From: Bacteroidales bacterium
GTDB taxonomy: Bacteria; Bacteroidota; Bacteroidia; Bacteroidales; UBA3663
Assembly: GCA_017561935.1 (NCBI GenBank)
Contig: JAFZBE010000065.1
Span: 1 to 64,000 of the forward strand
Reading direction: 5' to 3'
DNA length: 64,000 bases
In this document: positions 5,481 to 56,200 of the stretch, in pieces
How the letters are laid out: each line of letters opens with the position of its first letter
How positions within the stretch are numbered: the stretch's first letter is position 1
Notes under the pieces: generated by a model
Database searches by the model: none
What the model was told of the DNA's origin: nothing
What the model saw: only the letters and a program-made list of their open reading frames with translations
Translations under genes and position numbers: made by a program

Positions 5481-7193
5481 ATGAATAAACAGAATGTATT
5501 ATTAACCTTAGGTCTGGCATTCGTTGCCACCTCACTTTTTGCACAGTATCCGACCATCCCCGACAGCGTCAAGGCTCGCGGAATGGCCGAGGAGATCATG
5601 TGGGCCAAGATGGATAACGCCGCTTGGCAGAAAGCCGTGCCCATAGTGATGGATCAGATGCTCAATGGTAAACCGTTTGTGCCGTGGGCCAATCAGCCGT
5701 CGGATTTGCGACAAGCTACAATACCTGCATTTCCTGGTGCAGAGGGCGGCGGCATGTATAGTTTTGGTGGGCGCGGCGGCAAGATCCTGGTGGTCACAAG
5801 CCTTGCCGATGAAGGACCTGGCACGCTGCGAGAAGCGTGCGAGGCGGGAGGCGCTCGCATCATCGTGTTCAACGTGGCGGGTGAGATCCATCTAAACCGT
5901 CCGATTCACCTTAGGGCTCCCTACGTCACCATTGCAGGACAGACCGCTCCTGGCCAGGGTGTGGTGGTGACAGGTCAGACTCTCGAGGTCGATACGCACG
6001 ATGTCATCATCCGCTATATGCGTTTCCGACGCGGAGCAATGGATGTGGCCCACCGAGATGATGCTTGTGGCGGCAATGGCATCGGCAACATCATTTATGA
6101 CCATTGTTCTGCATCGTGGGGATTGGATGAGGTGATGTCGATGTATCGTCACGTCTATGCGCGTAGGGTCAATGGATATGGCGAGAAGCTGGCCTGTTGT
6201 AACATCACCATTCAGGACTGCATCTTCGGCGAGGGCCTGGATCTCTACAATCATGGCTTTGGGGCTTCGATAGGAGGTTATAACTCGCTCTTTGCGCGTA
6301 ACCTTTTTGCCAACAACATCTCGCGTAATCCCTCGATAGCAATGGATGGCGACTTCAACTTTGTCAACAATGTCCTTTACAACTGGTGGAACCGTTCGGT
6401 TGATGGTGGCGACCACAATTCCTTCATCAATATCATCAACAATTACTACAAGCCAGGTCTGATAACGGGTTTCGATGCAAACCAGCTGGTGGATAACTAT
6501 CTGCGGAACTACAAGAAGAATGTCAAGAAGTTCGGGTTCGGCAACTCGGAAAAGGCAGCCGCCAACAAGGGCGCCACGAAGGCACCGGAAATCTGCTATC
6601 GTATCCTGAAACCCGAGCATGGCAGGGGAGAGGCTCATGCTAATGATTGGGGCAAGGCATACGTTGATGGAAACATTGTGGAAGGTTTCCCGACCATATC
6701 GGCCGATAACTGGGCAGGAGGCGTGCAGCCTGCCGGCCTTGGCGACGCATTGAGGATTCGTGAGGCCCTGAAGGTGGATACTCCCTTCGAATACAATGCA
6801 CCGCAGCGTATCATGAGCGCAGAAGAGAGCTACGAATATGTATTGAATAATGTGGGAGCGACCAAGCCTTGCCGTGATGCCGTTGATGAACGCATCGTTC
6901 AGAGTGTTCGTACAGGTTCGGCGACGTTTGTTCCCGAAGCCGAGGAGTTCAGTTCGCCCTATAGTCACCGACGACTGCCTGCCGACAGTTACAAGCTGGG
7001 CATTATCACCAACCCGCAGCAGGTGGGCGGTCTTCCAGCCTATTTGGGTGAACCTCGTCTGGACACCGATGGTGACGGCATCCCCGATGAATGGGAAAAA
7101 GCTAATGGACTGAATCCGAACGATGCCAAAGATGCACTTCAGATACGGGAGGATGGATATATGGTGATTGAATGGTATATCAATAGTTTGTAA
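5481..7193 (+). CDS. Pectate lyase, PL1-like, exported
   Basis: It eliminatively cleaves polygalacturonate. The 570-residue protein has a signal peptide ending SLFAQ. The beta-helix starts at AFPGAEGGGMYSFGGRGG (about residue 80) and holds the typical GTLREACEAGGARIIVFNVAG, ITIAGQTAPGQG-like and VIIRYMRFRRG segments. A Ca-binding/catalytic stretch (HRDDACGG, IIYDHCSASWGLDE) follows. The C-terminus has a calcium-binding DTDGDGIPDEWEKANGLNP motif, as in many Bacteroidetes PL1 enzymes. It probably works with the divergent galactanase on pectin. It converges with tatC, 15 bp apart. Confidence 0.93.
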   Translation: MNKQNVLLTLGLAFVATSLFAQYPTIPDSVKARGMAEEIMWAKMDNAAWQKAVPIVMDQMLNGKPFVPWANQPSDLRQATIPAFPGAEGGGMYSFGGRGGKILVVTSLADEGPGTLREACEAGGARIIVFNVAGEIHLNRPIHLRAPYVTIAGQTAPGQGVVVTGQTLEVDTHDVIIRYMRFRRGAMDVAHRDDACGGNGIGNIIYDHCSASWGLDEVMSMYRHVYARRVNGYGEKLACCNITIQDCIFGEGLDLYNHGFGASIGGYNSLFARNLFANNISRNPSIAMDGDFNFVNNVLYNWWNRSVDGGDHNSFINIINNYYKPGLITGFDANQLVDNYLRNYKKNVKKFGFGNSEKAAANKGATKAPEICYRILKPEHGRGEAHANDWGKAYVDGNIVEGFPTISADNWAGGVQPAGLGDALRIREALKVDTPFEYNAPQRIMSAEESYEYVLNNVGATKPCRDAVDERIVQSVRTGSATFVPEAEEFSSPYSHRRLPADSYKLGIITNPQQVGGLPAYLGEPRLDTDGDGIPDEWEKANGLNPNDAKDALQIREDGYMVIEWYINSL

Positions 7194-8646: not shown

Positions 8647-8718
8647 TTTTTTGAGAACTTTTTTTGGTAAATGGTCAAATAACCCCATTTTTCAGCGAAG
8701 AAATGCTATCTCAAACCG

Positions 8719-9137
8719 AAATGGAACGTCTGCGGACGCTGATGCTCCATCTCGTTCGTAGATAGAACATCTACGGACGTTGATGCTCCAACTTCGTTCG
8801 GAAATGGAACGTCCACGGACGTTGACGCTCTAACTTCGTTTGGAAATGGAACGTCCACGGACGCAGACGCTCCAACTTCGTTTGGAAATGGAACGTCCAC
8901 GGACGCAGACGCTCCAACTTCGTTCGAAAATGGAACGTCCACGGACGTTGACGCTCTAACTTCGTTTGGAAATGGAGCATCTACGGACGTTGACGCTCCA
9001 ACTTCGTTTGGAAATGGAACATCTACGGACGTTGACGCTCCAACTTCGTTTGGAAATGGAACATCTACGGACGCTGACGCTCCAACTTCGTTTGGAAATG
9101 GATCATCTACGGACGTTGGCGTTCTATTTCATTTTTT
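8719..9137. repeat. 42-bp minisatellite, about 10 copies
   Basis: Units start at 8719, 8761, 8802, 8844, 8886, 8928, 8970, 9012, 9054 and 9096; the second is 41 bp and the last is decayed. Each unit begins AAATGGAAC and, in the best copies, holds the dyad AACGTCC-AC-GGACGTT, followed by a CTCCAACTTCGTTTGG-like stretch. Because 42 is a multiple of three, several frames stay open across the array, but none has a start or context that suggests a real gene. The array overlaps the last codons of the gene at 9129. It has no spacers, so it is not CRISPR. Confidence 0.95.
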
Positions 9138-9617
9138 TGAAACAAATCGCAGGGCTTCGAAGCTTACGCCAAATCGTTTGGCTGTCCTTTGCAGACTTTT
9201 ATAGGAATCCCATCCATAACGGCTGGCTACTTCTTCAAGGCTCTTGATGCTGATCTGTTTCTTATAAGCTTTAACGAATTCCTTGTTAATCTGAAAACCT
9301 TCGGGAACTTCTTTCGACTTTTCTTTGATGTATTCCTTGGAATCTTTGTAGCTTGCGCGTTTCTCTTCCCACTTTTCCTTGGCCTGAATGACACGCCAAT
9401 GGAGGATGAAATCCTTGAGCCTTATTCCTGTCAGCATTTGCATGGCAAAAGACAGCGCACGAGGATCCACGTTGAGCAGTAGAGCAATATCCTCCGATCG
9501 GTGCGTCTTTGTCATGCGTATAGCTTCGATGACATTGTCGATGACAAGTTCTCCAGTAGGTTCCCCTTTTCTGTTATAGAGTTCCTCAAGATTCGTGAAT
9601 TGTTGAATGTTTGTCAT
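9129..9617 (-). CDS. Small protein with AraC-like helix-turn-helix halves
   Basis: The 162-residue protein has no signal peptide. Residues ~42-80 (EDIALLLNVDPRALSFAMQMLTG, KDFILHWRVIQAKEKW) resemble the first AraC-type helix-turn-helix and its linker helix. Residues ~127-158 (LEEVASRYGWDSYKSLQRTAKRFGVS) resemble the second. About 45 charged residues separate them, more than in a normal AraC domain. It may be a divergent DNA-binding regulator of the operon it ends, but this is inference. It lies 28 bp after the DUF5703 gene with no visible promoter, and its 3' end abuts the minisatellite. Confidence 0.7.
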   Translation of the reverse strand: MTNIQQFTNLEELYNRKGEPTGELVIDNVIEAIRMTKTHRSEDIALLLNVDPRALSFAMQMLTGIRLKDFILHWRVIQAKEKWEEKRASYKDSKEYIKEKSKEVPEGFQINKEFVKAYKKQISIKSLEEVASRYGWDSYKSLQRTAKRFGVSFEALRFVSKK

Positions 9618-9645: not shown

Positions 9646-11955
9646 TTAATAATCTCTCAATCTACTTGTATCGCATTCGATGATTCGACCATCTGAAGCG
9701 TATAGTTTGAAGCGGATGTATTTGTCCTTGGGCCATGCTGGGAAGAGGATGGGTTCACCTGTCTCCGGGTCTTCCTGCAGGAGCATCTCTTCGAGGCCGA
9801 TGAGGGCCGAGCCGCCCCAATTGTGGTCGGGACTCCAATCGAAGCCGGGTCCCCAGAATGCGGGGAAACGGTAGGGGCCGTCCTTGAGTTTCTCCATGGT
9901 GAGCTGATATGCCTCGGCAGAAAGACCGAGACATGCTGCCCAGATATTGTCTTGCTTCCAGCCTTTCGATGAGCGATGGGCGAGGGCCACCGAATCGCAT
10001 TGGTAGGTGTTCAAGGCGAGGTCGTTGGCCGTGTATTCGCCGCGCTCGTCTTTCTCAAGCCCGTAGATGCGCCAGGGCCATACGGGATAGAGCTGCGGCG
10101 TTTCGACGTTGTTGATGCGCTCGTAGGCGATGGCTGGAGCGATGCACGGTTTGCCTTGCTGCATTCTTGTGGGGATGGGAGGGATGCGCGTGGCCAGTGC
10201 CTTTAGGTAGGGAAGATGAGTCGTGTCGTTCGATTGCTCCATGAAACGGATGCAGTCGTTCGTGACGCGTTGCAGGGCGGCGATGGTGCTCGATGAGTTG
10301 TAGGTCATCTTGTAGGTCTCGCATCCTGAGCCGGGATAGAGGATAAGGTGACCGTTGGAGTCCATTCCTCCGCTCCTATGTCCACGCTGACGGGCCAGGT
10401 AACGATAATGCTCGTCGAAGAATCGGAGGCAGGAGACAATCATCGGCTCATATTTCTCGATGGGGAAGGAGGCATCGTAACGCCGTGCCTCGAGTGCCAT
10501 CTCGCAGAATTCGAGGACGGTGTCCCATTCGTATTCGAGCCAGGCATTGTATTCGACGCCGGGGTCAAACCCGGCGGGACGTTTTTGCCCGTATTCGGCA
10601 GTATTGGGCAGGCCGAAGTTCTCCATCTGTTCGGTGAAGCAGGCACCTTCGTGGTTCCAATATGCACGACTGCGTATTTCGGCGTTATGCAGCAATGTGG
10701 CGTAGAAGTCGAGCTGTGTCTGCAGCAGGTCGTAGTCGCCGCTTTTCAGCATACCCCAATAGACGAGGCGCTGGTTCTGGGCGGTGAAGGTGCCTCCGCC
10801 CCATTTGCGGAAGTCGGGCGTCGGGTGGAACTTTCCTGCCACGAAGTTCGCCATGCTGGTGCTATCGACTTCGAGGGGATCGAAGGCGAAGAGTCCTCCA
10901 TTGAACTTGGTGGGGTATTCGCCTCCGTAATTGCAGCCGAGCATATAGCGGAAGAGCGTCACGTTGCGCAGGGCATCAGCCAGCTGTGCATCACTACCGT
11001 CGGTCTCGAAGAGGCAGCGGTTCATGTACTGCTTCCACCATGTCTGGCTGGCCTTTCGGTCGTTCTTCAGATTGACGGCGCGTTGTGTTGCTGCTGTCGT
11101 TTGTCTCCAGTCGTCGAGCGACGACTGCTGCGTGCAGAGGGTGATCTGGAAATGATGGTGTCGGGCCATGCCCTTGGCCGAACGGTAGTCCCATTGGTGA
11201 AATGCTCTGCCGTATTGGTCGTGAAGAGCTGTTGAGTTTGCGGGTTGGTGGGCTGTTGAGTTCAATGTGCCGCCAGTCAATATTCCTCCGAAGATGCGGT
11301 CGCAAAGGGGATTGTAGAGGCTGTCCTTCCATGCGCCGAGCTGTTGGTCGTGCACAGTGTATTCGAACACGGTTGTGCCACGGTTCTGGTGGAAGAAGGT
11401 GAGCTGCGAAGATGCAGCTTCGATGCTGTCGCGACGCGTAAAGATACGTTTGGGGTCAGCTTGCTTGGGGGCGAGCCATTTCCAGCTGGATTGTTGTCCC
11501 TCGGCCTGCGAGAACGCTTCGTCGTGGGTGCGCCAGCTCTGATAGCTCAGGATGGGGAGCATCTTCTGCTTAGCATCCACTTCGACATGCACGACGGGTT
11601 TGAATACATCGCACCAGAGGGTGACCGTCACATCGCCTTGCGAGATTGTCATGGCTCCCGTTTCGAGATGCAGCGTTTGTGTGAAATCATCTGCGTTCCA
11701 GTCGGGGAAGACATCCAAAGCAAAGCGCCCTAACTTCAGCATCGTGTTGTTCTCGTCGAAAGTGCCGGATTGGGAAAGGTAGAAACGGATGGTTCCCTCG
11801 GCATCGCACCACACGTTAAGTCCCACACCGCCACCGCCTACGGGCATCGACCCGGCCGAGTTGGTCGAGGGTGTTGTCCAAGTGTAGGTCGTTGTCCTGC
11901 CTAACGCTGTCGTGGCAAGCAGGAACATACAGAGAAATAGAGTTCTTTTTAACAT
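9646..11955 (-). CDS. DUF5703-type six-hairpin glycoside hydrolase-like protein, exported
   Basis: The 769-residue protein has a signal peptide (LFLCMFLLATTALG). The N-terminal beta-sandwich opens with TWTTPSTNSAGSMPVGGGGVGLNVW, as in DUF5703 proteins. The remainder looks like an (alpha/alpha)6 barrel related to GH95-like enzymes: LFRYMLGCNYGGEYPTKFNGG, AQNQRLVYWGMLKSGD, and near the end FPAFWGPGFDWSPDHNWGGS. Its substrate is unknown. Position in the sugar-acid operon next to a GH2 suggests that it frees a sugar or sugar acid from a plant glycan. A 12-bp direct repeat at 11226-11263 adds the loop NSTAHQPANSTA in frame. Confidence 0.8.
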   Translation of the reverse strand: MLKRTLFLCMFLLATTALGRTTTYTWTTPSTNSAGSMPVGGGGVGLNVWCDAEGTIRFYLSQSGTFDENNTMLKLGRFALDVFPDWNADDFTQTLHLETGAMTISQGDVTVTLWCDVFKPVVHVEVDAKQKMLPILSYQSWRTHDEAFSQAEGQQSSWKWLAPKQADPKRIFTRRDSIEAASSQLTFFHQNRGTTVFEYTVHDQQLGAWKDSLYNPLCDRIFGGILTGGTLNSTAHQPANSTALHDQYGRAFHQWDYRSAKGMARHHHFQITLCTQQSSLDDWRQTTAATQRAVNLKNDRKASQTWWKQYMNRCLFETDGSDAQLADALRNVTLFRYMLGCNYGGEYPTKFNGGLFAFDPLEVDSTSMANFVAGKFHPTPDFRKWGGGTFTAQNQRLVYWGMLKSGDYDLLQTQLDFYATLLHNAEIRSRAYWNHEGACFTEQMENFGLPNTAEYGQKRPAGFDPGVEYNAWLEYEWDTVLEFCEMALEARRYDASFPIEKYEPMIVSCLRFFDEHYRYLARQRGHRSGGMDSNGHLILYPGSGCETYKMTYNSSSTIAALQRVTNDCIRFMEQSNDTTHLPYLKALATRIPPIPTRMQQGKPCIAPAIAYERINNVETPQLYPVWPWRIYGLEKDERGEYTANDLALNTYQCDSVALAHRSSKGWKQDNIWAACLGLSAEAYQLTMEKLKDGPYRFPAFWGPGFDWSPDHNWGGSALIGLEEMLLQEDPETGEPILFPAWPKDKYIRFKLYASDGRIIECDTSRLRDY
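11226..11263 (-). repeat. In-frame direct repeat inside the DUF5703 gene
   Basis: GCTGTTGAGTT occurs twice, 24 bp apart, and encodes NST-A-HQPA-NST-A in a probable surface loop. It belongs with the other short tandem arrays of this window. Confidence 0.6.
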
Positions 11956-12047: not shown

Positions 12048-15446
<3,399 letters not shown>

Positions 15447-16664
15447 TTAGGCGAACAGATCCTTCCATTCGTAGCTGCCTGGCTTGATGGTCAGATGCGT
15501 GGATGTGGCGTCGAGGCATTGCATCCTGACAATGCCTGGGCCGATGACATTGGTGATGTGGAAACGTGACCACGCGAGGGCCTTGATGGCAGAATGGGCA
15601 GTGGCACCGCCCTCGATGATGAGTTCGGATAGATTTGCGGATTTGGCGATGCGCTGAGTCATATCGCCCGTCACCTGGCGTAAGGCCAAGGCTCCTTCGC
15701 GCGTGCCGGATGAGGGGTAAGGCAGGGTGAGAATGAACGAGGCGGTCTTGCCTGCCACGACCTGAGTCTGCTTGAGGCGTCCCATCCATTTGTCGGCAGC
15801 ATCCTTCGGGGTGATTTTGAGCTTTGTTACATTGTCGAACACATCACGCGGCATGGGAATGTTGGCCATGTTGTGGCGGCGCACATAGGGTTGTGTGCTG
15901 AGGTCAATGCTCTGTGTGCTACCGCAGACGATAAGGGCGGTGCCTTTCTCGCTGAGACCATGAAAAGACTTGGCACGCGATGGTTTGCGCCCCAGTTCCT
16001 CAAGGAATGCGCAGAAGAGGTCGGCGGCACCCGCCAGGAGGGTGGGGATGCGATTGTTGAGCGCCATCTTCACGGTACGGTGAACATCCTGCGTATCTTC
16101 GGCATCGCAGATGCGGAGGCGGCTACCGGGCATAACATCGATAGCTGCAGCTACATTGGCAGTCGTAGCCGGAAATTCGGGGTCACGGCTGAAATCGGTC
16201 TGGTCAATCGGAACCCCATTGACGAAATACCGTCCGCCACGGATAGTGCGGCCCATGCTTGGGTTGGCTGGCATGTACATTACCTGTTCGTAACGAGACT
16301 CCTCGATGAGTGCCCGCAACTCGAGGTGAACATGTCCGCGAAGGGCAGAATCGGTCTTCTTGAAAAGGTGCAGCACATCGTCCTGTTTTGCCATCGACTG
16401 GGCACGCTTCAGTGGTGTCATGGCGGCATAACGAGCCTCAGTCAATTTGGGCAATCCCACCTTGATGGCTTGGCAAATGCGATGAGTTTCACTCACGGCC
16501 TCCTGCTCGGTCATAGATCGGGTGTCGGTAGCAATGACAATCAAGTCGCTGATAGGCAGGTCGTCAGCAACGTCGATAAGTAATGAGGTAGATAAACCGT
16601 AGGTGTGACCAATGCCTGCAATCTCAGCAGCACCTGTCAGGTCATCAGCAATTACAATTATCAT
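15447..16664 (-). CDS. Four-carbon acid sugar kinase (DUF1537), probable D-threonate kinase
   Basis: The family phosphorylates C4-OH of tetronates such as D-threonate, using ATP in the cytoplasm. The 405-residue protein starts MIIVIADDLTGAAEIAG, the family's substrate-binding motif, and has FKKTDSALRGHV and a C-terminal nucleotide-binding region (ELIIEGGATAHSAI). It lies 36 bp after a PdxA2-type gene. That pair is the known tetronate route: kinase, then oxidative decarboxylation to dihydroxyacetone phosphate. Exact stereospecificity cannot be read from sequence. Confidence 0.88.
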   Translation of the reverse strand: MIIVIADDLTGAAEIAGIGHTYGLSTSLLIDVADDLPISDLIVIATDTRSMTEQEAVSETHRICQAIKVGLPKLTEARYAAMTPLKRAQSMAKQDDVLHLFKKTDSALRGHVHLELRALIEESRYEQVMYMPANPSMGRTIRGGRYFVNGVPIDQTDFSRDPEFPATTANVAAAIDVMPGSRLRICDAEDTQDVHRTVKMALNNRIPTLLAGAADLFCAFLEELGRKPSRAKSFHGLSEKGTALIVCGSTQSIDLSTQPYVRRHNMANIPMPRDVFDNVTKLKITPKDAADKWMGRLKQTQVVAGKTASFILTLPYPSSGTREGALALRQVTGDMTQRIAKSANLSELIIEGGATAHSAIKALAWSRFHITNVIGPGIVRMQCLDATSTHLTIKPGSYEWKDLFA

Positions 16665-16700
16665 AATATTGGAAATTTGGTTTCAGTCGGACAATTCTTT

Positions 16701-17747
16701 TTATTCGGTTACGTTTTGGTGTTCCAGGCGATAGATAGCCATGCGGGTTGCGTAGTCGATGCTGCTCAGCAGGGCTTCTTCTGCAGCGATACCCTTACCA
16801 GCCACATCGAAGGCTGTGCCATGATCGACGGAAACACGGATGATAGGAAGTCCCAATGTGATGTTGACACCTTTTTGTGGCAGCATCTTGCCAGTCACGG
16901 GGTCCCAGTTGAAGCCCAAAACCTTGAGCGGGATATGTCCTTGGTCGTGATACTGTGCTACAACGCCATCGTATTTGCCGCACTTGGCCTTGGCGAAGAT
17001 GGAGTCGGGCGGGATAGGTCCTTCGACGTTGAAGCCGCGCTTATGCAGTTCCTCGACGGCAGGGATAATCTCCTGGGCTTCCTCCCAGCCGAAGAGTCCG
17101 TTCTCGGAGCAATGCGGATTGAGGCCGGCGATGCCGATGTGGGGATTCTCGATGCCGAACTGACGGCAGGCGTCGTGGATGAGCTCGGTGACTTCGATGA
17201 TGCGTGCCTTTTTGCAGAGGTCGCATGCCTTGCGGAGGGAGACATGGGTTGAGACATGGATGACGCGTAAGGGACCGTCGACTAACAACATGGCATATTT
17301 ACTGGTGCCAGTGAAGGTGGCATAGATCTCGGTGTGACCATCGTAGTTGTGACCTGCCTTGTGAAGGGCTTCCTTGTTAAGGGGTGCTGTACAAGTGCCA
17401 TCTACCTCGTTCGCCATCGCCAGGTCGATGGCTTTCTTGACATACTGGAAGGCCGCATTGCCGCACTGCACCTGCACCTTGCCCCATTCGAAGGTGTTCA
17501 GGTCGATGAGGGCGAGGTCATAGACATCGACAACGCCTGGGATGAACCGAGCTTCATTCACTTCGTGGATGGCGTTGACCTTCATTTCGAGACTCAGCAG
17601 GTCGATGGCCATCTGCATGATGCTCGCATCGCCCACGATGAGGGGACGGCAGGTCTGGTAGATGTCGTGGTGTGACAAGGATCGTGCGCAGATCTCGGGT
17701 CCGATGCCTGCGGGGTCACCCATGGTGATGGCTAATATCGGTTTCAT
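16701..17747 (-). CDS. PdxA2-type 4-phospho-D-threonate 3-dehydrogenase
   Basis: This NAD-dependent enzyme oxidises 4-phosphotetronate at C3; decarboxylation gives dihydroxyacetone phosphate and CO2. The 348 residues include the PdxA opening AITMGDPAGIGPEI. Metal ligands are His in YDGHTEIY, YHDQGHIPLK and DHGTAFDVAG. Vitamin B6 synthesis (PdxA proper) is less likely, because the gene is followed by the DUF1537 kinase and preceded by an alcohol dehydrogenase, symporter and aldolase. I infer PdxA2 from context rather than from a diagnostic residue. Confidence 0.85.
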   Translation of the reverse strand: MKPILAITMGDPAGIGPEICARSLSHHDIYQTCRPLIVGDASIMQMAIDLLSLEMKVNAIHEVNEARFIPGVVDVYDLALIDLNTFEWGKVQVQCGNAAFQYVKKAIDLAMANEVDGTCTAPLNKEALHKAGHNYDGHTEIYATFTGTSKYAMLLVDGPLRVIHVSTHVSLRKACDLCKKARIIEVTELIHDACRQFGIENPHIGIAGLNPHCSENGLFGWEEAQEIIPAVEELHKRGFNVEGPIPPDSIFAKAKCGKYDGVVAQYHDQGHIPLKVLGFNWDPVTGKMLPQKGVNITLGLPIIRVSVDHGTAFDVAGKGIAAEEALLSSIDYATRMAIYRLEHQNVTE

Positions 17748-17756
17748 ATCGGGTGT

Positions 17757-17804
17757 TTTTCTCTCTAGATTTTCTAGATATTCTAGAGCCTCTAGATATT
17801 CTAT
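17757..17804. repeat. TCTAGA-rich short tandem array
   Basis: Five imperfect TCTAGA/TTCTAGAT units with about 9-10 bp period fill the gap between the PdxA2-type and alcohol dehydrogenase genes. No promoter is visible. Confidence 0.7.
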
Positions 17805-18950
17805 TTAAAATAGTGAGTTATAGATGTCGGCTGCATCCTGAAGGGACACCGGGCGCGGGTTGTTACGGAGCAGGCGTTGCTGCTTCATGGCAGCTTCGGC
17901 CATCTCGGGAACGGCACTCTGCGGGATGCCAATCTCGGCGAGGGTTTGCGGGATTCCGCAGTCGCGCGAGAGCTGTGCGACATATTCTACACCGCGCATA
18001 GCCGTCTCTTCGTCGGAGAGTCCAGGTTCGCAACCCAGGGCGAGGGCCACCTCGGCGTACTTCTGGAGGTTGGCTTGCATGTTGAACTTCATCACCGTGG
18101 GAAGGAGCACGGCATTGGAGAGACCGTGGCTCTTGTGGAACATTCCTCCCACAGGATAGGCGAGGGCATGCACGGCAGCTGTGTTGACGGGACCGAGTCC
18201 GAGACCCCCGTACATTGAACCCAGGAGCATAGCTTCGCGCGCCTCGATGTCGTGACCGTCGGTGACGGCACGCTTCAGGTGACGCGAAATGAGCTGTATG
18301 CCGTAGTGGGCATACATATCGACGGAAGGATGAGCATATTTGTTGGTATAAACTTCGATGCAATGTGTCAGGGCATCCATACCCGTGGCTGCTGTGACAC
18401 GTGCCGGCATGCTGATGGTCAGGGCGGGGTCGAGGTAAGCAACATCAGCCAACAGGTGGTCGGAGATGATGCCCTTCTTGCCATTGTCGCTCTCGTCGAG
18501 CAGGATGGCATTGGGCGACACCTCGCTGCCTGTGCCGGCTGTGGTGGGTGCGCAGGCGAACCATACGCCACGGTGTTTTACGAACCCGATGCCGAAACAC
18601 TCCTCGATGGTCTGTTCGGAGTGGAGGAACGTGGCCACAAGTTTGGCGACATCCATCACCGAACCACCACCAACCCCAAATACCGATTCAGCTTCGAAGT
18701 CCTGCGCTTCGGCAAGGATACGCTTGAAGTCGGCTACTGTGGGTTCGCGCAGGATTTGGGTCTCGACAAGCACCTTGACACCATTGGCGTTGAGCCGTTC
18801 AATGATTGGTTGCAACATGGGCACGATGGGGTCAGCTGTAAGGAGCAAGAGATGGTTGAGTCCCATCTTGATATAGTCGTCGCAGAAGTGGTCCATGCAG
18901 CCTGTGCCGAACTCGATGCGCTTGGGTTGTTTTAGGATTATGGGTTCCAT
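17805..18950 (-). CDS. Iron-containing alcohol dehydrogenase (group III)
   Basis: An NAD(P)-dependent aldehyde reductase/alcohol dehydrogenase of 381 residues. Family marks are VFGVGGGSVMDVAK (nucleotide binding), APTTAGTGSEVSPNA, and the metal ligands in GMDALTHCIE and HALAYPVGGMFHKSHG. Relatives include lactaldehyde, propanediol and glycolaldehyde enzymes. In this operon I infer reduction of the aldehyde freed by the aldolase, for example D-threuronate to D-threonate, before phosphorylation. The substrate is not visible in the sequence. Confidence 0.88.
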   Translation of the reverse strand: MEPIILKQPKRIEFGTGCMDHFCDDYIKMGLNHLLLLTADPIVPMLQPIIERLNANGVKVLVETQILREPTVADFKRILAEAQDFEAESVFGVGGGSVMDVAKLVATFLHSEQTIEECFGIGFVKHRGVWFACAPTTAGTGSEVSPNAILLDESDNGKKGIISDHLLADVAYLDPALTISMPARVTAATGMDALTHCIEVYTNKYAHPSVDMYAHYGIQLISRHLKRAVTDGHDIEAREAMLLGSMYGGLGLGPVNTAAVHALAYPVGGMFHKSHGLSNAVLLPTVMKFNMQANLQKYAEVALALGCEPGLSDEETAMRGVEYVAQLSRDCGIPQTLAEIGIPQSAVPEMAEAAMKQQRLLRNNPRPVSLQDAADIYNSLF

Positions 18951-18966
18951 TAAAAGGGGGTATGAA

Positions 18967-19060
18967 AGGTTATGGAGGGTTAAGAGGGGTTAAGAAGGGT
19001 TAAGAGGGGTTAAGAGGGGTTAAGAGGGGTTAAGAAGGGTTAAGAAGGGTTAAGAAGGGT
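18967..19060. repeat. 10-bp tandem array TAAGA(A/G)GGGT
   Basis: About nine head-to-tail copies of TAAGAGGGGT or TAAGAAGGGT lie between the alcohol dehydrogenase and symporter genes. The array runs into the symporter gene: its last codons (SNPS) and stop lie in a repeat unit. The same unit flanks the other end of that gene (20641-20719). Confidence 0.9.
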
Positions 19061-20633
19061 TTGACTTTCGTTCTTTAATGAAGCCGTAGATGGTGAGGCT
19101 GTCGTTGGCTTTGTCGCTCGGGAAGAGGAATGAAGCCAGATAACCCACCACAAGGACGATGAGGTGGCTATAGACACCCAGCATGTATTTCGAGTGGGTG
19201 AAGTTCCATGTGCCCAAGTCTATCAATGCAGACTTAGAACCATCGGGCATCTTCATGGGCGATGTCAGGGTAGCATAGGCAGTGAAGAGGATGCAGGCGA
19301 TGAGACCCACATAGAGACCTTTCTTGTTCGCACGCCTGCTGAATAGACCCAGTAGGAAAATACCTACAATGCCCGCCGAGAAAATGGCGTAGAACGCGAA
19401 GATTGTCTCGAGCACCGAGCCACCGTGGGTTTGTATGTAAGCAATGGCAATGGCGATCACTCCAAGACTGGCGATGACCACTGCCCAGCGGCCTGCGTTG
19501 AGTTTCTGTCGGTCGGTCATGCTGGGATGCAGTTTTACGATGTAGTCTTGTACGGCGATGGCAGAGATGCAGTTGAGGTCGGAGTCAAGCGACGAAATGG
19601 CTGCTGCTGCAATGGCTGCAATGATGAGTCCGCGTATGCCGAGGGGCAGTTGTGTCGAGATGAAGTGGGGGAATACAGCATCCGCTTTCAGCAGTTGGGA
19701 ACCTGTTTCGGGGTCGATGACAGCGGGATCGGGCGACAACTGGTAATATGCCCAGAGCAACGAACCCACAAGCATAAACATGGTCCAGACGGGCACGGAG
19801 AGAGACACTCCAATGAATGCTGCCTTCTTGGCCTCGTGGTCGTTCTTGGCGGTCAGGTAACGTTGAACGATGGTTTGGTCGGTACCGTACTTCTGAAGAG
19901 CATAGAAGATGCCATTGAACACCATCACCCAGAATGTTGTTTCGACAAAATTCCATTCATAGGGTCCCACGTCAATCTTGCCGGCATCCCACGCTGTGCC
20001 TACAATTTCGCTCGGGCCGTAGGGCGTGCCGACACCGAAGAGAAGGAAAGTGATGCAAAGCAGACCACCGCCAATAAGCAGGAACCCCTGTACCACATCC
20101 ATCCAGATGATGGCCTCCATGCCACCCAAGAGGGTTAAGATGATGATGGCCACGGCCAGGACGGCCACGATGAGGTAGATGTTGACATCCATGAAGGCTG
20201 CCAGCGCCATCGAAACGAGATAGAAAACCGAGCCCATCTTGGTGAAGTGAGTCAGCACAAAAGCGATGGAGCTATAGTAACGAGCCCCAGCACCGAAACG
20301 TCGCTCAAAGTATTCGTAGGTCGATAGTTTGATGATTGAACGGTAGAGGGGTACGATGATGCCGATAAGCGCAAGGAGGACAATGGGAACCATGAGACCC
20401 TGTACCAGCAGTACCCAGTTGCTGCTATAGGCAGCACCTGGATAAGCCAGGAAGGTGACACTTGATATCAGTGTGGCAAAGATCGAGATACCTACCGCCC
20501 AAGCAGGAACGCGTCCGCTACCTTTGAAGTAGGTCGAACTATCCTTCTGCCTATGGGCGAAGTAGAAGCCCATGACAATGGCAAGGAGGATACTTGCAAT
20601 GACGATAAAGTAATCAAACCAGTGGAGTCCCAT
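19050..20633 (-). CDS. Sodium:solute symporter (SSS/SLC5 family), probable sugar-acid importer
   Basis: The 527-residue inner-membrane protein has about 13 hydrophobic segments. It carries the SSS opening WFDYFIVIASILLAIVMGFYFA, RVPAWAVGISIFATLISSVTFLAYPG (Na-site helix), and EYFERRFG. It lies directly after a DHDPS/NAL-family aldolase gene, an arrangement also used for sialic acid uptake and cleavage. I therefore infer import of a 2-keto-3-deoxy (ulosonic) acid or another sugar acid. Both ends of the gene abut TAAGAAGGGT arrays, one of which provides the stop codon. Confidence 0.9.
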   Translation of the reverse strand: MGLHWFDYFIVIASILLAIVMGFYFAHRQKDSSTYFKGSGRVPAWAVGISIFATLISSVTFLAYPGAAYSSNWVLLVQGLMVPIVLLALIGIIVPLYRSIIKLSTYEYFERRFGAGARYYSSIAFVLTHFTKMGSVFYLVSMALAAFMDVNIYLIVAVLAVAIIILTLLGGMEAIIWMDVVQGFLLIGGGLLCITFLLFGVGTPYGPSEIVGTAWDAGKIDVGPYEWNFVETTFWVMVFNGIFYALQKYGTDQTIVQRYLTAKNDHEAKKAAFIGVSLSVPVWTMFMLVGSLLWAYYQLSPDPAVIDPETGSQLLKADAVFPHFISTQLPLGIRGLIIAAIAAAAISSLDSDLNCISAIAVQDYIVKLHPSMTDRQKLNAGRWAVVIASLGVIAIAIAYIQTHGGSVLETIFAFYAIFSAGIVGIFLLGLFSRRANKKGLYVGLIACILFTAYATLTSPMKMPDGSKSALIDLGTWNFTHSKYMLGVYSHLIVLVVGYLASFLFPSDKANDSLTIYGFIKERKSNPS

Positions 20634-20640
20634 TTAGTAA

Positions 20641-20719
20641 GATGGTTAAGAAGGGTTCTGAGGGGTTAAGAAGGGTTCTGAGGGGTTAAGAAGGGTTCTG
20701 AGGGGTTAAGAAGGGTTGC
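20641..20719. repeat. 20-bp tandem array (TAAGAAGGGT-TCTGAGGGGT)
   Basis: About 3.5 copies of a 20-bp unit made of two related 10-mers lie upstream of the symporter gene, between it and the aldolase gene. Confidence 0.9.
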
Positions 20720-20767
20720 TTTCGTAGGTATGCGAGCGATGCTTGGAGTTTAAGGTTCAAAGGGCTC

Positions 20768-21670
20768 TTAATAATGTACCACGCTACGCGCCTTGAGGGC
20801 AATGTCCTTCTCTTCATCTTCACTCAGTCGGGTCAGTGGCGGGAACACGTCGGGAGTGCAAAGTCCATCGGTCTGCATCATCACCTTGAGGGCAGTGAGC
20901 GATTGGCCCAAGGTGCGTCCGGCCTGATAGATTTTCGCTATATCGTTGGTGCTAACCTGTAGTTGCTGTGCTGTTCCTAGATCGCCTGAGATAGCCGACT
21001 CATAGAGCTTTCGGAACATACCTGGAGTGAAATTGCCAGTGGAAGGTACAATGCCATCTCCGCCCAAAGAGAGGGAATAGAACGATTGTGCGGCCCAACC
21101 GCAGAAATAACTGAAATCCTCGCGATGCTGGGCGAATTCGATACATAGCTGCATGCGTTCAAGGTCGCGCTCCGAGTCTTTCAGTCCTACGATGTTGGGA
21201 TGTTCGGCAAGACGTTTGATAACATCCACCGGGATACTCATGTGGGTGGTGGCGAAGATGTTGTAGAGCATCACGGGCACCTTCGAATAGTCGGCTAATT
21301 GGCGATAGTAGGCTTCCATTTGCCCGGGAGTCAGAGCATAATAGGTGGGAAGCGTTGCTACGATGACATCTGCACCGAGAGCAGTGAATGCATCCACTTG
21401 GGCGTGCTGTTCGGCGATGCAATTGCCTGTTAGTCCGGCATAGACCGTCACTTGTCCCGATGCTGCCTTGACAGCCGTCTCGACCAGCAGTCGCGCGTCG
21501 GCCTGGCTCACCGAATTACCTTCACCGGTGGTGCCCATCAACAAAGGGCTGACATTGTTCTTGACGAAGCTGTCGATGATGCGCTCGACAGCTGAGGTGT
21601 CAAGTTTGCCATCGGAGGTTACGGGGGTGACCATAGGGACAACCACGCCACAGTATTTCTTTGTACTCAT
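20768..21670 (-). CDS. DHDPS/N-acetylneuraminate lyase family aldolase
   Basis: A class I (Schiff-base) pyruvate-dependent aldolase of 300 residues. It has the family opening GVVVPMVTPVTSDGKLD, the pyruvate-binding GTTGEGNSVS, the catalytic Tyr in LPTYYALTP, and the Schiff-base Lys in IVGLKDSERDLER. Family members cleave or form 2-keto-3-deoxy acids. As first gene of an operon with a symporter, alcohol dehydrogenase, tetronate kinase and PdxA2, it probably cleaves a ulosonic acid to pyruvate plus an aldehyde, rather than making lysine precursors. The operon promoter is at 21798-21829, with a leader of about 120 nt. Confidence 0.87.
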   Translation of the reverse strand: MSTKKYCGVVVPMVTPVTSDGKLDTSAVERIIDSFVKNNVSPLLMGTTGEGNSVSQADARLLVETAVKAASGQVTVYAGLTGNCIAEQHAQVDAFTALGADVIVATLPTYYALTPGQMEAYYRQLADYSKVPVMLYNIFATTHMSIPVDVIKRLAEHPNIVGLKDSERDLERMQLCIEFAQHREDFSYFCGWAAQSFYSLSLGGDGIVPSTGNFTPGMFRKLYESAISGDLGTAQQLQVSTNDIAKIYQAGRTLGQSLTALKVMMQTDGLCTPDVFPPLTRLSEDEEKDIALKARSVVHY

Positions 21671-21742
21671 TCTTTTTTTTTCTTATAGATTATACAAATG
21701 TCAATTGTGGATTGAGAATCATGAATTGCAATATCTGAAACC

Positions 21743-21774
21743 TTGAGTCAACAATTTTTGGCAACTTGACTCAA
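21743..21774 (-). promoter_or_regulatory. Paired TTGA(G/C)TCAA dyads in the operon leader
   Basis: TTGAGTCAACAA (from 21743) and TTGACTCAACAA (from 21766) are 23 bp apart, about two helix turns. The 9-mers are reverse complements as well as direct repeats apart from the centre base, so they could be two operator half-sites or form an RNA hairpin about 20-45 nt after the likely start. Confidence 0.5.
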
Positions 21775-21797
21775 CAAATTCGGAGCATTTTGCGGGG

Positions 21798-21829
21798 CAA
21801 AGATATAGTTTTTATCTGAAAATACCAAA
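21798..21829 (-). promoter_or_regulatory. Promoter of the sugar-acid operon
   Basis: On the minus strand TTTG (21826-21829), exactly 20 nt, then TATCTTTG (21798-21805). It is the only good promoter found for the eight minus-strand genes down to 9129. Confidence 0.8.
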
Positions 21830-21877: not shown

Positions 21878-22744
21878 ATGAAAGATACACATAAAAACGG
21901 ACTTGTGCTCGAAGGAGGAGGCTTGCGTGGCATGTTCACCTGTGGTGTGCTTGATGTCATGATGGACAATAGCATCACTTTTGATGGTGCTATCGGGGTG
22001 TCGGCAGGTGCAGCATTTGGTGTCAATATCAAATCGGGTCAGCGGGGACGAGCCATCCGCTACAACTTGCAGATGGCGGGCGATAAGCGCTATATGAGTC
22101 TGCGCTCTTTGATCTTTACAGGTAATTTGTTCAATGCTGAGTTCTGTTATCATACTGTGCCTTGTGAGATAGACATCTTCGATAAGGAGGCCTTCGCTCG
22201 CAACCCGATGGAATTCATCGCTGTTTGCACCGATGTGCAGACTGGAGAGCCTGTCTATCACGTCATGGATCATATCGATTATGATGAGCTGGAATGGATA
22301 CGCGCCTCTGCTTCCCTTCCCCTTGTGGCACAACCGGTGCACGTTGGCGGCTATGTACTACTTGATGGAGGACTGGCCGATTCCATCCCTCTTAAGTTCA
22401 TGCAGGACCATGGTTATGAGCGCAACATCACGGTGTTGACGCAACCCTTGGGCTATCGAAAGACATTGTCGAAGCATTTGGGCCTGATGAGGTTCGTCAC
22501 CCGCAAGTATCCTAAAGTATATGAATGTCTGCGTCAACGTCCAGATATGTACAATGGACAACTCGACTATGTGATGAATGAAGCAGCACAGGGCAGGACG
22601 TTAATCATTGCTCCACCCGAGAAACTCGATGTGGGGCGCGTGGAGATGAAGCGGGAGAAGCTACAGAAAGTGTATGATGAAGGACGACGCGTCTGCGAGG
22701 CGATGTTGCCGGAGATAAGAGAGTTTTTGGGGGTTAATGGTTAA
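21878..22744 (+). CDS. Patatin-like phospholipase (YjjU type)
   Basis: A serine lipid acyl hydrolase of 288 residues, without signal peptide. It shows the oxyanion loop GLVLEGGGLRGMF, the nucleophile elbow GVSAGAAFG (Ser about residue 43) and the catalytic Asp in LLDGGLADSIP. The start is fixed, since the oxyanion loop begins at residue 8 and no earlier start fits. The promoter -7 box lies 4 nt upstream, suggesting a leaderless mRNA. The last codons (GVNG) and the stop lie in a GGTTAATGGTTAA repeat. It is divergent from the sugar-acid operon and probably unrelated to it. Confidence 0.92.
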   Translation: MKDTHKNGLVLEGGGLRGMFTCGVLDVMMDNSITFDGAIGVSAGAAFGVNIKSGQRGRAIRYNLQMAGDKRYMSLRSLIFTGNLFNAEFCYHTVPCEIDIFDKEAFARNPMEFIAVCTDVQTGEPVYHVMDHIDYDELEWIRASASLPLVAQPVHVGGYVLLDGGLADSIPLKFMQDHGYERNITVLTQPLGYRKTLSKHLGLMRFVTRKYPKVYECLRQRPDMYNGQLDYVMNEAAQGRTLIIAPPEKLDVGRVEMKREKLQKVYDEGRRVCEAMLPEIREFLGVNG

Positions 22745-22780
22745 TGGTTAAAGGTTAAAGGTTAATGGTTATGGGTTAAT
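22733..22780. repeat. GGTTAATGGTTAA-type tandem array
   Basis: Six or so imperfect GGTTAA(T/A)G units with a 7-8 bp period lie between the convergent patatin and DUF4421 genes and supply the patatin stop codon. Confidence 0.8.
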
Positions 22781-40623: not shown

Positions 40624-42033
40624 ATGAAGGATAGAATGCAGAATACATCCGCGAATGCGAATGGCTTCCCGCAAAGAGACAGGACGGCATCCGAAGGGTA
40701 TGTGGGAGCGCAGACCTACATGGAGATAGTCGAAGGGGAACTTGTGGAAATGCACTTTGAGGGACAATGCCTCATGGAGCGGATAATCGACATCTCCAAC
40801 CTCAGGGCCGCCTACAAGCAAGTGGTCGGCAACAAAGGCAAGGGAGGGGTCGATGGCATGGAAGTCAAGGAACTATACACCTGGTGTCAATTCCATATCG
40901 AAGACCTGAGACAATCCCTCATGGAAGGGACGTACGTCCCCAATCCAGTAAGGCGCGTAGAAATCCCGAAGGATAAGGGCAAGAAACGTCAGCTCGGCAT
41001 CCCCACGGTCATAGACCGTATGGTGCAGCAGGCAATCAGCCAAGTCCTCTCGGGAATCTACGAGCCGAGATTCAGTCGGACGAGTTATGGCTTCCGCCCC
41101 AAGCGAGGGGCACACGATGCCCTGCGTGAAGCAAGGAAGAACGTAACCGAAGGCTACAGATATGCCGTGGGCATCGACCTGGAACGCTTCTTCGACACCG
41201 TGAATCAAAGCAAACTGATAGAGGTGCTCGGCCGTACAGTCAAGGACGGACGGGTAGTGTCGCTGATACACAAGTATCTCCGCAGTGGCGTTATGGTACA
41301 CGGAGTATTGCAGCCGACGGAGGAGGGCACACCGCAAGGTGGTCCCTTGAGTCCATTGCTCAGCAATATCATGTTGAACGAGCTTGACAAGGAACTCGAA
41401 AGGAGAGGCCTGCGCTTTGTCCGCTATGCGGATGACAGCATCATCTTCTGCAAGAGCGAACGTGCGGCCCAACGCGTCAGAAGCACCATTACGGACTTTA
41501 TCGAAAGGAGACTACATCTGAAAGTCAATCGCGAAAAGACCGAAGTGGGGAGTATCATTGGGATGAAATACCTCGGCTATTCCTTCCGCATCATGCGAGG
41601 GGAGTGCCGATTGACCGTCCATTCCAAGACATACGCGAAACTGAAGAAGAAGCTGAAGGAGGCCACCATGCGCAGCAATGGAATGGGGTATCAGATCCGC
41701 AAGGAGAAGATGCACCAGATCATACGCGGATGGATAACCTACTTTCAGCTGGCAGACATGCAGAAACGGCTGAAGGAGATTGACAAATGGCTACGCCGCC
41801 GTTATCGCATGTGCATATGGAAGGCCTGGAAGAAATGCCGCACGAGAATCAGGAACCTAATCAAGTGCGGCATAGCGGAATGGCAAGCCTATGAATGGGG
41901 AAACAGCAGCAAAGGCTATTGGAGGGTCGCGGGCAGTGGAATACTGGACCGTGCCATAGGCAAAGAGGCTCTTCAAAAGCAAGGCTGGCCATGCCTAATG
42001 GACTATCATCGTTTAATAGTCCGCGTGCAATAA
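40624..42033 (+). CDS. ltrA: Group II intron reverse transcriptase/maturase
   Basis: It reverse-transcribes the intron during retrohoming and assists splicing. The 469 residues hold RT0-7: NLRAAYKQVVGNKGKGGVDGM, RQLGIPTVIDRMVQQAI, SYGFRPKRGAHDAL, AVGIDLERFFDTVN, GTPQGGPLSPLLSNIML and FVRYADDSIIFCKS (catalytic YADD about 267). A maturase X domain follows (GWITYFQLADMQKRLKEIDKWLRRR...CIWKAWKKCRTRIRNL). There is no HNH endonuclease domain, as in class C. The start MKDRMQ is 420 bp into the intron; the first ~50 residues are weakly conserved, so a later start (for example MERIID) cannot be excluded. Confidence 0.97.
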   Translation: MKDRMQNTSANANGFPQRDRTASEGYVGAQTYMEIVEGELVEMHFEGQCLMERIIDISNLRAAYKQVVGNKGKGGVDGMEVKELYTWCQFHIEDLRQSLMEGTYVPNPVRRVEIPKDKGKKRQLGIPTVIDRMVQQAISQVLSGIYEPRFSRTSYGFRPKRGAHDALREARKNVTEGYRYAVGIDLERFFDTVNQSKLIEVLGRTVKDGRVVSLIHKYLRSGVMVHGVLQPTEEGTPQGGPLSPLLSNIMLNELDKELERRGLRFVRYADDSIIFCKSERAAQRVRSTITDFIERRLHLKVNREKTEVGSIIGMKYLGYSFRIMRGECRLTVHSKTYAKLKKKLKEATMRSNGMGYQIRKEKMHQIIRGWITYFQLADMQKRLKEIDKWLRRRYRMCIWKAWKKCRTRIRNLIKCGIAEWQAYEWGNSSKGYWRVAGSGILDRAIGKEALQKQGWPCLMDYHRLIVRVQ

Positions 42034-52319: not shown

Positions 52320-53561
52320 TTATTTGAAAATCTTTTGGGTAAATTCGATGAAGTAGGTACGCCAATTACGCCAGATGTGTCCGCCCTCGGTCTCGCGATA
52401 AACCACGGGATAACCCTTCTCGTCCATGTACTTGAGGAATCCGTCGTTGGCCTCCTTGAGGAAGTCGGTCTTGCCGATAGCCACGTAATATAGGTAGGGA
52501 CGGTTCTTTGGAGCGAAGAGGTTGGCCATCTGCTGGTCGAAGTTCGCATAGACGGGGCTTCCGCCAGGTTCATCCTTGCCACGACGACCATCGCCTGCAC
52601 TGGCACCCGAGAAGAGTCCGATGTAGCCATACTGTCCGGCATAGTACTTGGAGATATGCTCAGAGTGGAACGAGCCCATCGAGAGTCCGGCAATGGCACG
52701 ATGGCGCTTGTCGTTGATGGTGCGGAAGTTCTTCTCGACATACTTGCGAACGTCGGGGAACGACAACTCGAAGGCAGCTTCCTTCATGCCTGGTTTAACG
52801 CCACCCATCACCATTTCGGGCTGACGGAAACCTCCGGCCTGCTCGCCGGGAGCCGACGTCTCGTAGGCATTGCCATTGGTCATCACGACGATCATCGGCT
52901 CGGCTTTGCCTGAAGCAATGAGGTTGTCGAGGATCTGGGTGACGCGGCCCTGGGTGTACCATGCCTCTTCGTCACCGCCACTTCCATGAAGGAGGTAGAA
53001 GACGGGATACTTCTTGCTCGATGTCTCGTAACCAGCTGGGGTATAGACGGTGAGACGGCGCTTCATCCCGAGTGTGGGGCTGTCGTACCAGCACTTGCGT
53101 ACAGTGCCATGGGGTACGTCGTTGACCGAGAACAGATCGCCCTGGTCGCCTGGCTCGCGGGTGATGATGAAGTAGTTAGTGAGCGTCTTGACGTCGCGGT
53201 TGACATAGACGTTCTGCAGGTCGAGCTGTTTCTGTCCGTCAACGACGAAGTTGTAGCAGTAGTAGTTCGCCTCGAGTGGCTCGGGTGTGGTGTATTCCCA
53301 GACACCGTCCTTACCTTCCTTGAGGTCGGCAGGTACGCTCACCGCCCACTTGCCCTGCGGGGTATCGATGAGTTGTTCGGGCAGGAAATCGCCACTCACC
53401 TTGACGCTGACAGCCTTGGGGGCATAGAGGCGGAAGGTGACGGTGTTGTCGGGGTGAATCTCGGGCGATACAATGTTGCTGCCGCCGAAGAGAGCCTGTT
53501 GAGCGGAGGCTCCCATGGTGGTGAGGAGTATTGCCGAGAGGGTTAATAACGTTTTCTTCAT
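52320..53561 (-). CDS. CE1-type esterase with N-terminal Ig/CBM48-like domain (copy 1)
   Basis: Such enzymes cleave feruloyl or acetyl esters on plant glycans. The 413-residue protein has a signal peptide ending ASAQQ. The E-set domain (~25-135: [31 protein letters not shown]) resembles CBM48. The esterase D domain contains [30 protein letters not shown], the nucleophile Ser in IAGLSMGSFHS, Asp probably in AIGKTDF, and His in [10 protein letters not shown]. It is one of three tandem paralogues, only 6 bp after the next one. Confidence 0.9.
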   Translation of the reverse strand: MKKTLLTLSAILLTTMGASAQQALFGGSNIVSPEIHPDNTVTFRLYAPKAVSVKVSGDFLPEQLIDTPQGKWAVSVPADLKEGKDGVWEYTTPEPLEANYYCYNFVVDGQKQLDLQNVYVNRDVKTLTNYFIITREPGDQGDLFSVNDVPHGTVRKCWYDSPTLGMKRRLTVYTPAGYETSSKKYPVFYLLHGSGGDEEAWYTQGRVTQILDNLIASGKAEPMIVVMTNGNAYETSAPGEQAGGFRQPEMVMGGVKPGMKEAAFELSFPDVRKYVEKNFRTINDKRHRAIAGLSMGSFHSEHISKYYAGQYGYIGLFSGASAGDGRRGKDEPGGSPVYANFDQQMANLFAPKNRPYLYYVAIGKTDFLKEANDGFLKYMDEKGYPVVYRETEGGHIWRNWRTYFIEFTQKIFK

Positions 53562-53567
53562 ATTCTA

Positions 53568-54797
<1,230 letters not shown>

Positions 54798-54807
54798 TCA
54801 ATGTGAC

Positions 54808-54925
54808 TTTTTCTTAACGCGAATTATCATGAATTTACATGAATTATTTAACTAAAATGTGTGCAAAGATGCATACTGAAAAATTAACGTTAATTCGTGA
54901 TAATTCGAGTTCAGTTACTTATCAA
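54808..54925. repeat. AT-rich short-period repeat between CE1 copies 2 and 3
   Basis: CGAATTATCATGAATT, TACATGAATTATT, AATTAACGTTAATTCG and TGATAATTCGAG recur at 10-11 bp spacing in a gap without genes. Related words fill the gap at 11955-12045. Confidence 0.6.
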
Positions 54926-54955
54926 TTAACAATTGTCGGCTTGAACAGACCCTTA

Positions 54956-56200
<1,245 letters not shown>

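Follow-up and report, generated by a model that had tools for sequence, protein, structure and literature searches.

A five-gene cassette of Bacteroidales as a candidate pathway for the catabolism of Dha, a sugar of rhamnogalacturonan II

Gut and rumen Bacteroidales eat the pectin rhamnogalacturonan II (RG-II), and its breakdown to monosaccharides is well mapped. What happens to one of the released sugars, Dha (3-deoxy-D-lyxo-2-heptulosaric acid)? The question is raised by five adjacent genes in a 64-kb stretch of DNA (the window; GC content 53%), which is part of contig G000:C16 of a 3.34-Mb Bacteroidales metagenome-assembled genome (MAG) that is 77% complete. The genes encode a class I aldolase (ALD), a sodium:solute symporter (SSS), an iron-type alcohol dehydrogenase (Fe-ADH), a PdxA2-type dehydrogenase and a DUF1537 kinase (KIN). 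All five open reading frames are intact, on the minus strand, where an earlier reading of the letters alone (the original prediction) had placed them (Table 1). That reading took the cassette for a Dha pathway. Our results support it as a prediction from sequence, and we put its probability at about 75%. In its favor are an association with the Dha hydrolase family GH143, which is not strict outside Bacteroidales, and adjacency to GH143 in several genera.

Each substrate and reaction in the proposed route is a prediction. Dha would be imported into the cytoplasm by the symporter. The aldolase, which is of the N-acetylneuraminate lyase (NAL) type, would break its C3-C4 bond, which yields pyruvate and D-threuronate. 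Fe-ADH would then reduce the aldehyde of D-threuronate to yield D-threonate, and the kinase would convert D-threonate to D-threonate 4-phosphate. Oxidation and decarboxylation of this phosphate by the PdxA2-type enzyme would yield dihydroxyacetone phosphate (DHAP) and CO2. A recheck by Fischer bookkeeping agrees with the stereochemistry that had originally been worked out: with C4, C5 and C6 of Dha pointing left (L), left and right (R), the retro-aldol reaction leaves CHO-L-R-COOH, which is D-threuronate and turns into D-threonate when reduced. Of the eight possible C7 stereoisomers just two, Dha among them, lead to D-threonate in this way.

The strongest evidence comes from the genomes in which the cassette is found. 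By the terms of the original prediction, a role in Dha catabolism would be refuted if most organisms with the gene set lacked RG-II enzymes. We observe the opposite: GH143 is present in 12/12, 30/30 and 35/35 of the genomes concerned. What we counted as GH143 are BT1020-like Dha hydrolases. The probe was the first of two genes upstream of the L034 cassette, which matches residues 25–611 of 5mqr (777 bits); the second gene matches residues 616–1102, the GH142 half (768 bits). We take 5mqr to be BT1020. Its propeller domain, PF24067, carries the BT_1020 name in Pfam.

Of 393 evenly sampled Bacteroidales genomes, 12 carry the kinase, 20 carry GH143 and 12 carry both (hypergeometric p = 5e-18). 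Our p-values ignore shared ancestry, and the count by genus is the more cautious figure: all eight genera with the kinase also have GH143, compared to 16 of 206 genera overall (p = 2e-10). Among 150 genomes of a single Prevotella genus the cassette aldolase is found in 30, GH143 in 45 and both in 30 (p = 1e-20). The total for GH143 was 51 there, but six relatives with only about 40% identity were counted apart because they might act on another substrate. GH143 is also present in every one of 35 further cassette genomes, a few of which were already counted among the 150 of Prevotella. The genus of the window itself, represented by incomplete MAGs, has ten genomes with both, three with neither and two that are discordant. 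Within Bacteroidales the cassette depends on GH143, almost never occurring without it. The dependence is one-way, since GH143 occurs without the cassette in, for example, G146, G178, G326 and G338. Hence, the release of Dha does not depend on this route, and the route is not the sole fate of Dha.

In several genera the cassette adjoins GH143 and GH142 or heads an RG-II locus, and in two genera it comes immediately behind these two genes. In G122 and G221 (L034 and L038) the gene order is GH143-GH142-(LacI-like)-ALD-SSS-FeADH-PdxA2-KIN-GH28-BT1017-type methylesterase, with the LacI-like gene present in G122. In G078 and G020 (L039/L129 and L040) a LacI-like gene and the cassette head an RG-II SusCD locus. 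Directly behind them come genes for SusC/SusD, a PL-like protein and DUF3826, of the kind that elsewhere accompanies GH143, and in G078 GH143-GH142 itself lies about 15 kb beyond the cassette. In four Prevotella genomes (G414, G417, G436 and G509) the cassette and GH143 share a contig and are 17–25 kb apart, with RG-II genes in between in G436. Work by Ndeh and colleagues in 2017 is said to show that GH142 and GH143 both act on chain D of RG-II. Chain D consists of Araf-Dha (PMC12282258). Both families would thus be chain D enzymes, and a cassette that adjoins them suggests a link with Dha itself and not with RG-II in general.

The five genes also stay together. When about 85,000 species genomes were searched with an alignment of the aldolase, 363 relatives came up, and the best 80 of these are mostly from Prevotella, Palleniella and Muribaculaceae. 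Viral contigs scanned in search of ALD contained no relative. We counted the completeness of the cassette in 57 relatives with at least 6 kb of downstream sequence, establishing the gene content of four Prevotella cassettes with tblastn. All five genes are present in 49 of the 57, usually within about 6 kb, which is far from chance. In distant Bacteroidales and in other classes (L039, L040 and L157–L159) the order is shuffled to FeADH-ALD-PdxA2-KIN-SSS. Reshuffling without loss points to a joint function of the cassette genes.

Do the proteins fit the steps assigned to them? ALD belongs to the class I aldolases of the NAL and dihydrodipicolinate synthase (DHDPS) type by family score, GTTGE motif, catalytic Tyr and Schiff-base Lys. 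Its AF2 model (predicted local distance difference test, pLDDT, 95) is closest in fold to the N-acetylneuraminate (Neu5Ac) lyase 5c54 (Z 40); the top matches are NAL and DHDPS enzymes alike (Z 37–40), which does not discriminate the substrate. Across 31 cassette aldolases GTTGE 46–50, Y136 and K164 are invariant and R168 is nearly so. Arg168 may be the residue that binds the distal carboxylate of the substrate. We reject a DapA function for ALD: it scores 153 bits against the TIGR00674 cut-off of 206, and at what we take to be the position of the substrate-binding arginine of DapA, after the YN motif, all 31 sequences have Thr141. The function of an N-acetylneuraminate lyase is rejected as well, by score (NF003164, 104 vs 281 bits; TIGR00683, 87 vs 382 bits). 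ALD shares fold, catalytic motif and the predicted pyruvate product with the aldolases of Neu5Ac and 2-keto-3-deoxygluconate (KDG) pathways, but is a distinct subfamily, with KDSERD at the Schiff-base lysine and no DHDPS arginine, and its downstream genes would handle a four-carbon acid.

The DUF1537 fold of KIN is confirmed by a structural model (pLDDT 91; Z 37.3, root-mean-square deviation 3.1 over 355 residues aligned to 5dmh), with PF07005 scoring above its cut-off and the second Pfam domain, PF17042, slightly under it (26.5 vs 28.3 bits). The best-scoring named family is the D-threonate kinase model NF047819, with 102 bits compared to 78 bits for the 3-oxo-tetronate kinase model, and the same model wins in 5/5 cassette kinases tested, far below the cut-off in each. 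KIN is therefore predicted to be a D-threonate kinase. The window's PdxA matches PdxA2 structures (2hi1, 307 bits; 6e85, 281 bits) better than it matches PdxA1, for which the score is about 170 bits. PdxA2 acts in organic acid catabolism (PMC9997740). The closest named groups for Fe-ADH are lactaldehyde reductase and ErcA, both under cut-off. The window's genome encodes a second, distant DUF1537 protein (L001 727–1992, G000:C11), directly 3' of an MFS-like transporter gene.

Several observations weigh against our reading. First, the sequences stay under the curated equivalog cut-offs for their predicted roles: ALD and KIN are under every one (KIN has 102 bits where NF047819 demands 450), the PdxA exceeds the cut-off of the general pdxA model but not that of the D-threonate equivalog (NF002891, 341 vs 583 bits), and Fe-ADH reaches no curated cut-off at all. 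Second, the set is not always complete. Among the 57 relatives Fe-ADH alone is missing in three, and the kinase and PdxA2 are not near the aldolase in five; the kinases of G002, G008, G011 and G012 are not in a visible cassette. Third, in the window's own genome GH143 and the cassette lie on different contigs; that this genome encodes a protein of full BT1020 architecture at all, at G000:C59, counts in favor. Fourth, and as the main point against a strict link with GH143, the full cassettes of G652 and G754 (the symporter of the latter not in view) come from genomes without a GH143 match at 1e-30. Fifth, RG-II enzymes generally travel together, and co-occurrence with GH143 by itself links the cassette to RG-II as a whole and cannot single out Dha. 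At L027, L030, L031 and L032, in four genomes of the window's genus, the kinase homologue is 38–46% identical and has no visible cassette around it; three of the four lie beside MatE-type transporters.

The fifth point leaves room for the suggestion that the cassette serves a different RG-II sugar, such as Kdo (3-deoxy-D-manno-oct-2-ulosonic acid), aceric acid or apiose, GH143 being a mere marker of RG-II use. We consider this unlikely. By Fischer bookkeeping, Kdo would give pyruvate and D-arabinose, which is useless to a four-carbon acid kinase, and on this ground we reject Kdo as a substrate of ALD. Neither apiose nor aceric acid is a 2-keto-3-deoxy acid. Apionate pathways do start from an RG-II sugar and use a four-carbon-type kinase, possibly of the same family as KIN, but to our knowledge they have no DHDPS aldolase or PdxA2. 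Adjacency to the chain D enzymes in L034 and L038 also argues for Dha, as does G609, where the cassette clusters with a BT_1020-like propeller and no other RG-II enzyme was seen in the cluster.

Kdo is better suited to a separate pair of genes. The RG-II loci of G122, G221, G294, G436 and others contain a different aldolase and symporter (ALD2/SSS2). ALD2 is 26–29% identical to the window's ALD and related to B. thetaiotaomicron 4xky; the KDSER(D) motif at the Schiff-base Lys is peculiar to the cassette aldolases relative to it. With two ulosonic acids and two aldolase modules, ALD2/SSS2 is a candidate Kdo catabolic module.

One could also argue that the cassette is a general four-carbon sugar acid pathway, for threonate from ascorbate or for erythronate, the aldolase and alcohol dehydrogenase serving unrelated 2-keto-3-deoxy acids such as KDG. 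Zhang et al. (2016), cited in PMC10971088, reportedly established the DUF1537 D-threonate kinase and showed that kinase plus PdxA2 suffices for D-threonate. G652 and G754, with the set but no GH143, fit such a pathway as well. We nevertheless regard it as quite improbable: reshuffling has not parted the aldolase, the symporter and, in most cases, Fe-ADH from the kinase and PdxA2, and the cassette follows GH143, which ascorbate-derived threonate would not explain. No dehydrogenase or isomerase of the L-threonate or D-erythronate routes is among the cassette genes. Vitamin B6 salvage by recycling of 4-hydroxythreonine, a known role of a Salmonella DUF1537 kinase (PMC10971088) in which PdxA2 can perform the PdxA step (PMC9997740), can be dismissed almost entirely, as 12/13 cassette genomes have a separate PdxA elsewhere, so that the PdxA of the cassette is unlikely to be the B6 gene and we reject a role in B6 biosynthesis, and as salvage leaves the aldolase, symporter and alcohol dehydrogenase without a role and the GH143 association unexplained.

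If the cassette is indeed for Dha, what would it do outside Bacteroidales? G611 has a full cassette and, elsewhere in the genome, an RG-II locus with GH143. The full cassette of G609 lies among sulfatases and BNR propellers, and clusters of sulfatases and sialidase-like BNR propellers surround the cassette at L159, L166 (G609:C5) and L157 (G652:C2). This suggests a Dha-like substrate other than RG-II in G609 and G652. Dha is mentioned for Tetraselmis algae in the literature, and an algal source for these cassettes is plausible but unproven.

In the window, the surroundings agree with the pectin-degrading region seen originally: PL11, GH28, GH53 and a PL1-like gene lie near the cassette, together with SusCD and a hybrid two-component regulator. 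The only genes of RG-II-locus type are the PL1-like gene, related to cluster c4 genes beside GH143 in L132–L134, L136, L137 and L141, and the DUF5703 gene, whose product is 46% identical to L140_2 in the GH143 locus of G326. The claimed promoter was found by sequence match ahead of the aldolase gene; TTTG-N20-TATCTTTG, which we take to be the Bacteroides consensus, occurs five times in the window, where 0.22 matches are expected by chance. The transcription unit probably extends past KIN through the GH2, DUF5703 and 162-aa genes to 9129, and the order KIN-GH2-DUF5703-162-aa gene recurs in the same-genus genomes G006, G010 and G013. Just past its end lies a 42-bp unit in 9.6 copies (8718–9118). 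Short tandem repeats on GGTTAA/GAAGGGTTAA occupy gaps between cassette genes (18950–19061, 20644–20717) and the end of a patatin gene (22732–22780). Further away are a group II intron maturase (RVT_1 + GIIM; 40624–42033) after a GH28 gene in an RG-I-type (rhamnogalacturonan I) locus, and three adjacent paralogous esterases with CBM48-like N-termini (52320–56194) beside a SusCD pair and GH3s.

Table 1. Positions of the cassette, its neighbors in the window, and ALD2/SSS2 pairs in other genomes
Feature	Position	Strand	Remarks
Bacteroides-type promoter TTTG-N20-TATCTTTG	21798-21829	-	sequence match, upstream of aldolase
ALD, DHDPS/NAL-type class I aldolase, predicted Dha aldolase	20768-21670	-	300 aa, PF00701 175 bits
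SSS, sodium:solute symporter, predicted Dha importer	19050-20633	-	527 aa, PF00474 / TIGR00813
Fe-ADH, iron-type alcohol dehydrogenase, predicted D-threuronate reductase	17805-18950	-	381 aa, PF00465/PF25137
PdxA2-type dehydrogenase, predicted D-threonate-4-phosphate dehydrogenase (DHAP + CO2)	16701-17747	-	348 aa, PF04166 350 bits
KIN, DUF1537 four-carbon acid-sugar kinase, predicted D-threonate 4-kinase	15447-16664	-	405 aa, PF07005 117 bits
GH2 enzyme	12048-15401	-	45 bp after KIN; order conserved in genus
DUF5703 protein	9646-11955	-	90-bp gap after GH2; order conserved in genus
162-aa open reading frame, last of the run	9129-9617	-	28-bp gap after DUF5703; position conserved in genus
PL1-like pectate lyase, type neighboring GH143 in RG-II loci	5481-7193	+	49-56% identity to c4 genes; 9buj 145 bits
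ALD2/SSS2 pairs	L126 8706-11173, L128, L131, L135, L138, L164 7581-10021		several within RG-II loci

How does the cassette relate to known systems? DtnK and PdxA2, from work by Zhang and colleagues in 2016, reportedly yield DHAP and CO2. The cassette resembles that pathway in having a DUF1537-fold kinase beside a PdxA2-like dehydrogenase and no extra dehydrogenase or isomerase. It differs in that its sequences are far under the equivalog cut-offs and in the added aldolase, Fe-ADH and symporter, which would derive D-threonate from a C7 ulosarate. Bacteroides RG-II loci (BT1001-BT1032 type, with the GH142/GH143 enzyme BT1020) have homologues that the cassette adjoins in several genera. Published open-access work on RG-II loci covers the release of sugars, and we found in it no account of cytoplasmic Dha use. 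Our search, which covered open-access literature, found no paper that deals with the catabolism of Dha or with the five genes as a set. Known enzyme families appear to be assembled into a route that we did not find described there.

In its widest form, our proposal is an undescribed full route from Dha to pyruvate, DHAP and CO2, which Prevotella and its relatives would employ on chain D of RG-II, and marine relatives on Dha-like acids from the sulfated polysaccharides of algae. A sister module of aldolase and symporter, located in the same RG-II loci, would handle Kdo. We offer this picture tentatively and stop a little short of favoring it as a whole. A Dha pathway with a genomic signature would close a gap concerning the fate of released Dha. 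The cassette would tell strains able to use Dha from those that do no more than set it free, a difference on which cross-feeding could rest. It would also provide enzymes for assays of Dha; standards for this sugar are lacking (PMC12168206).

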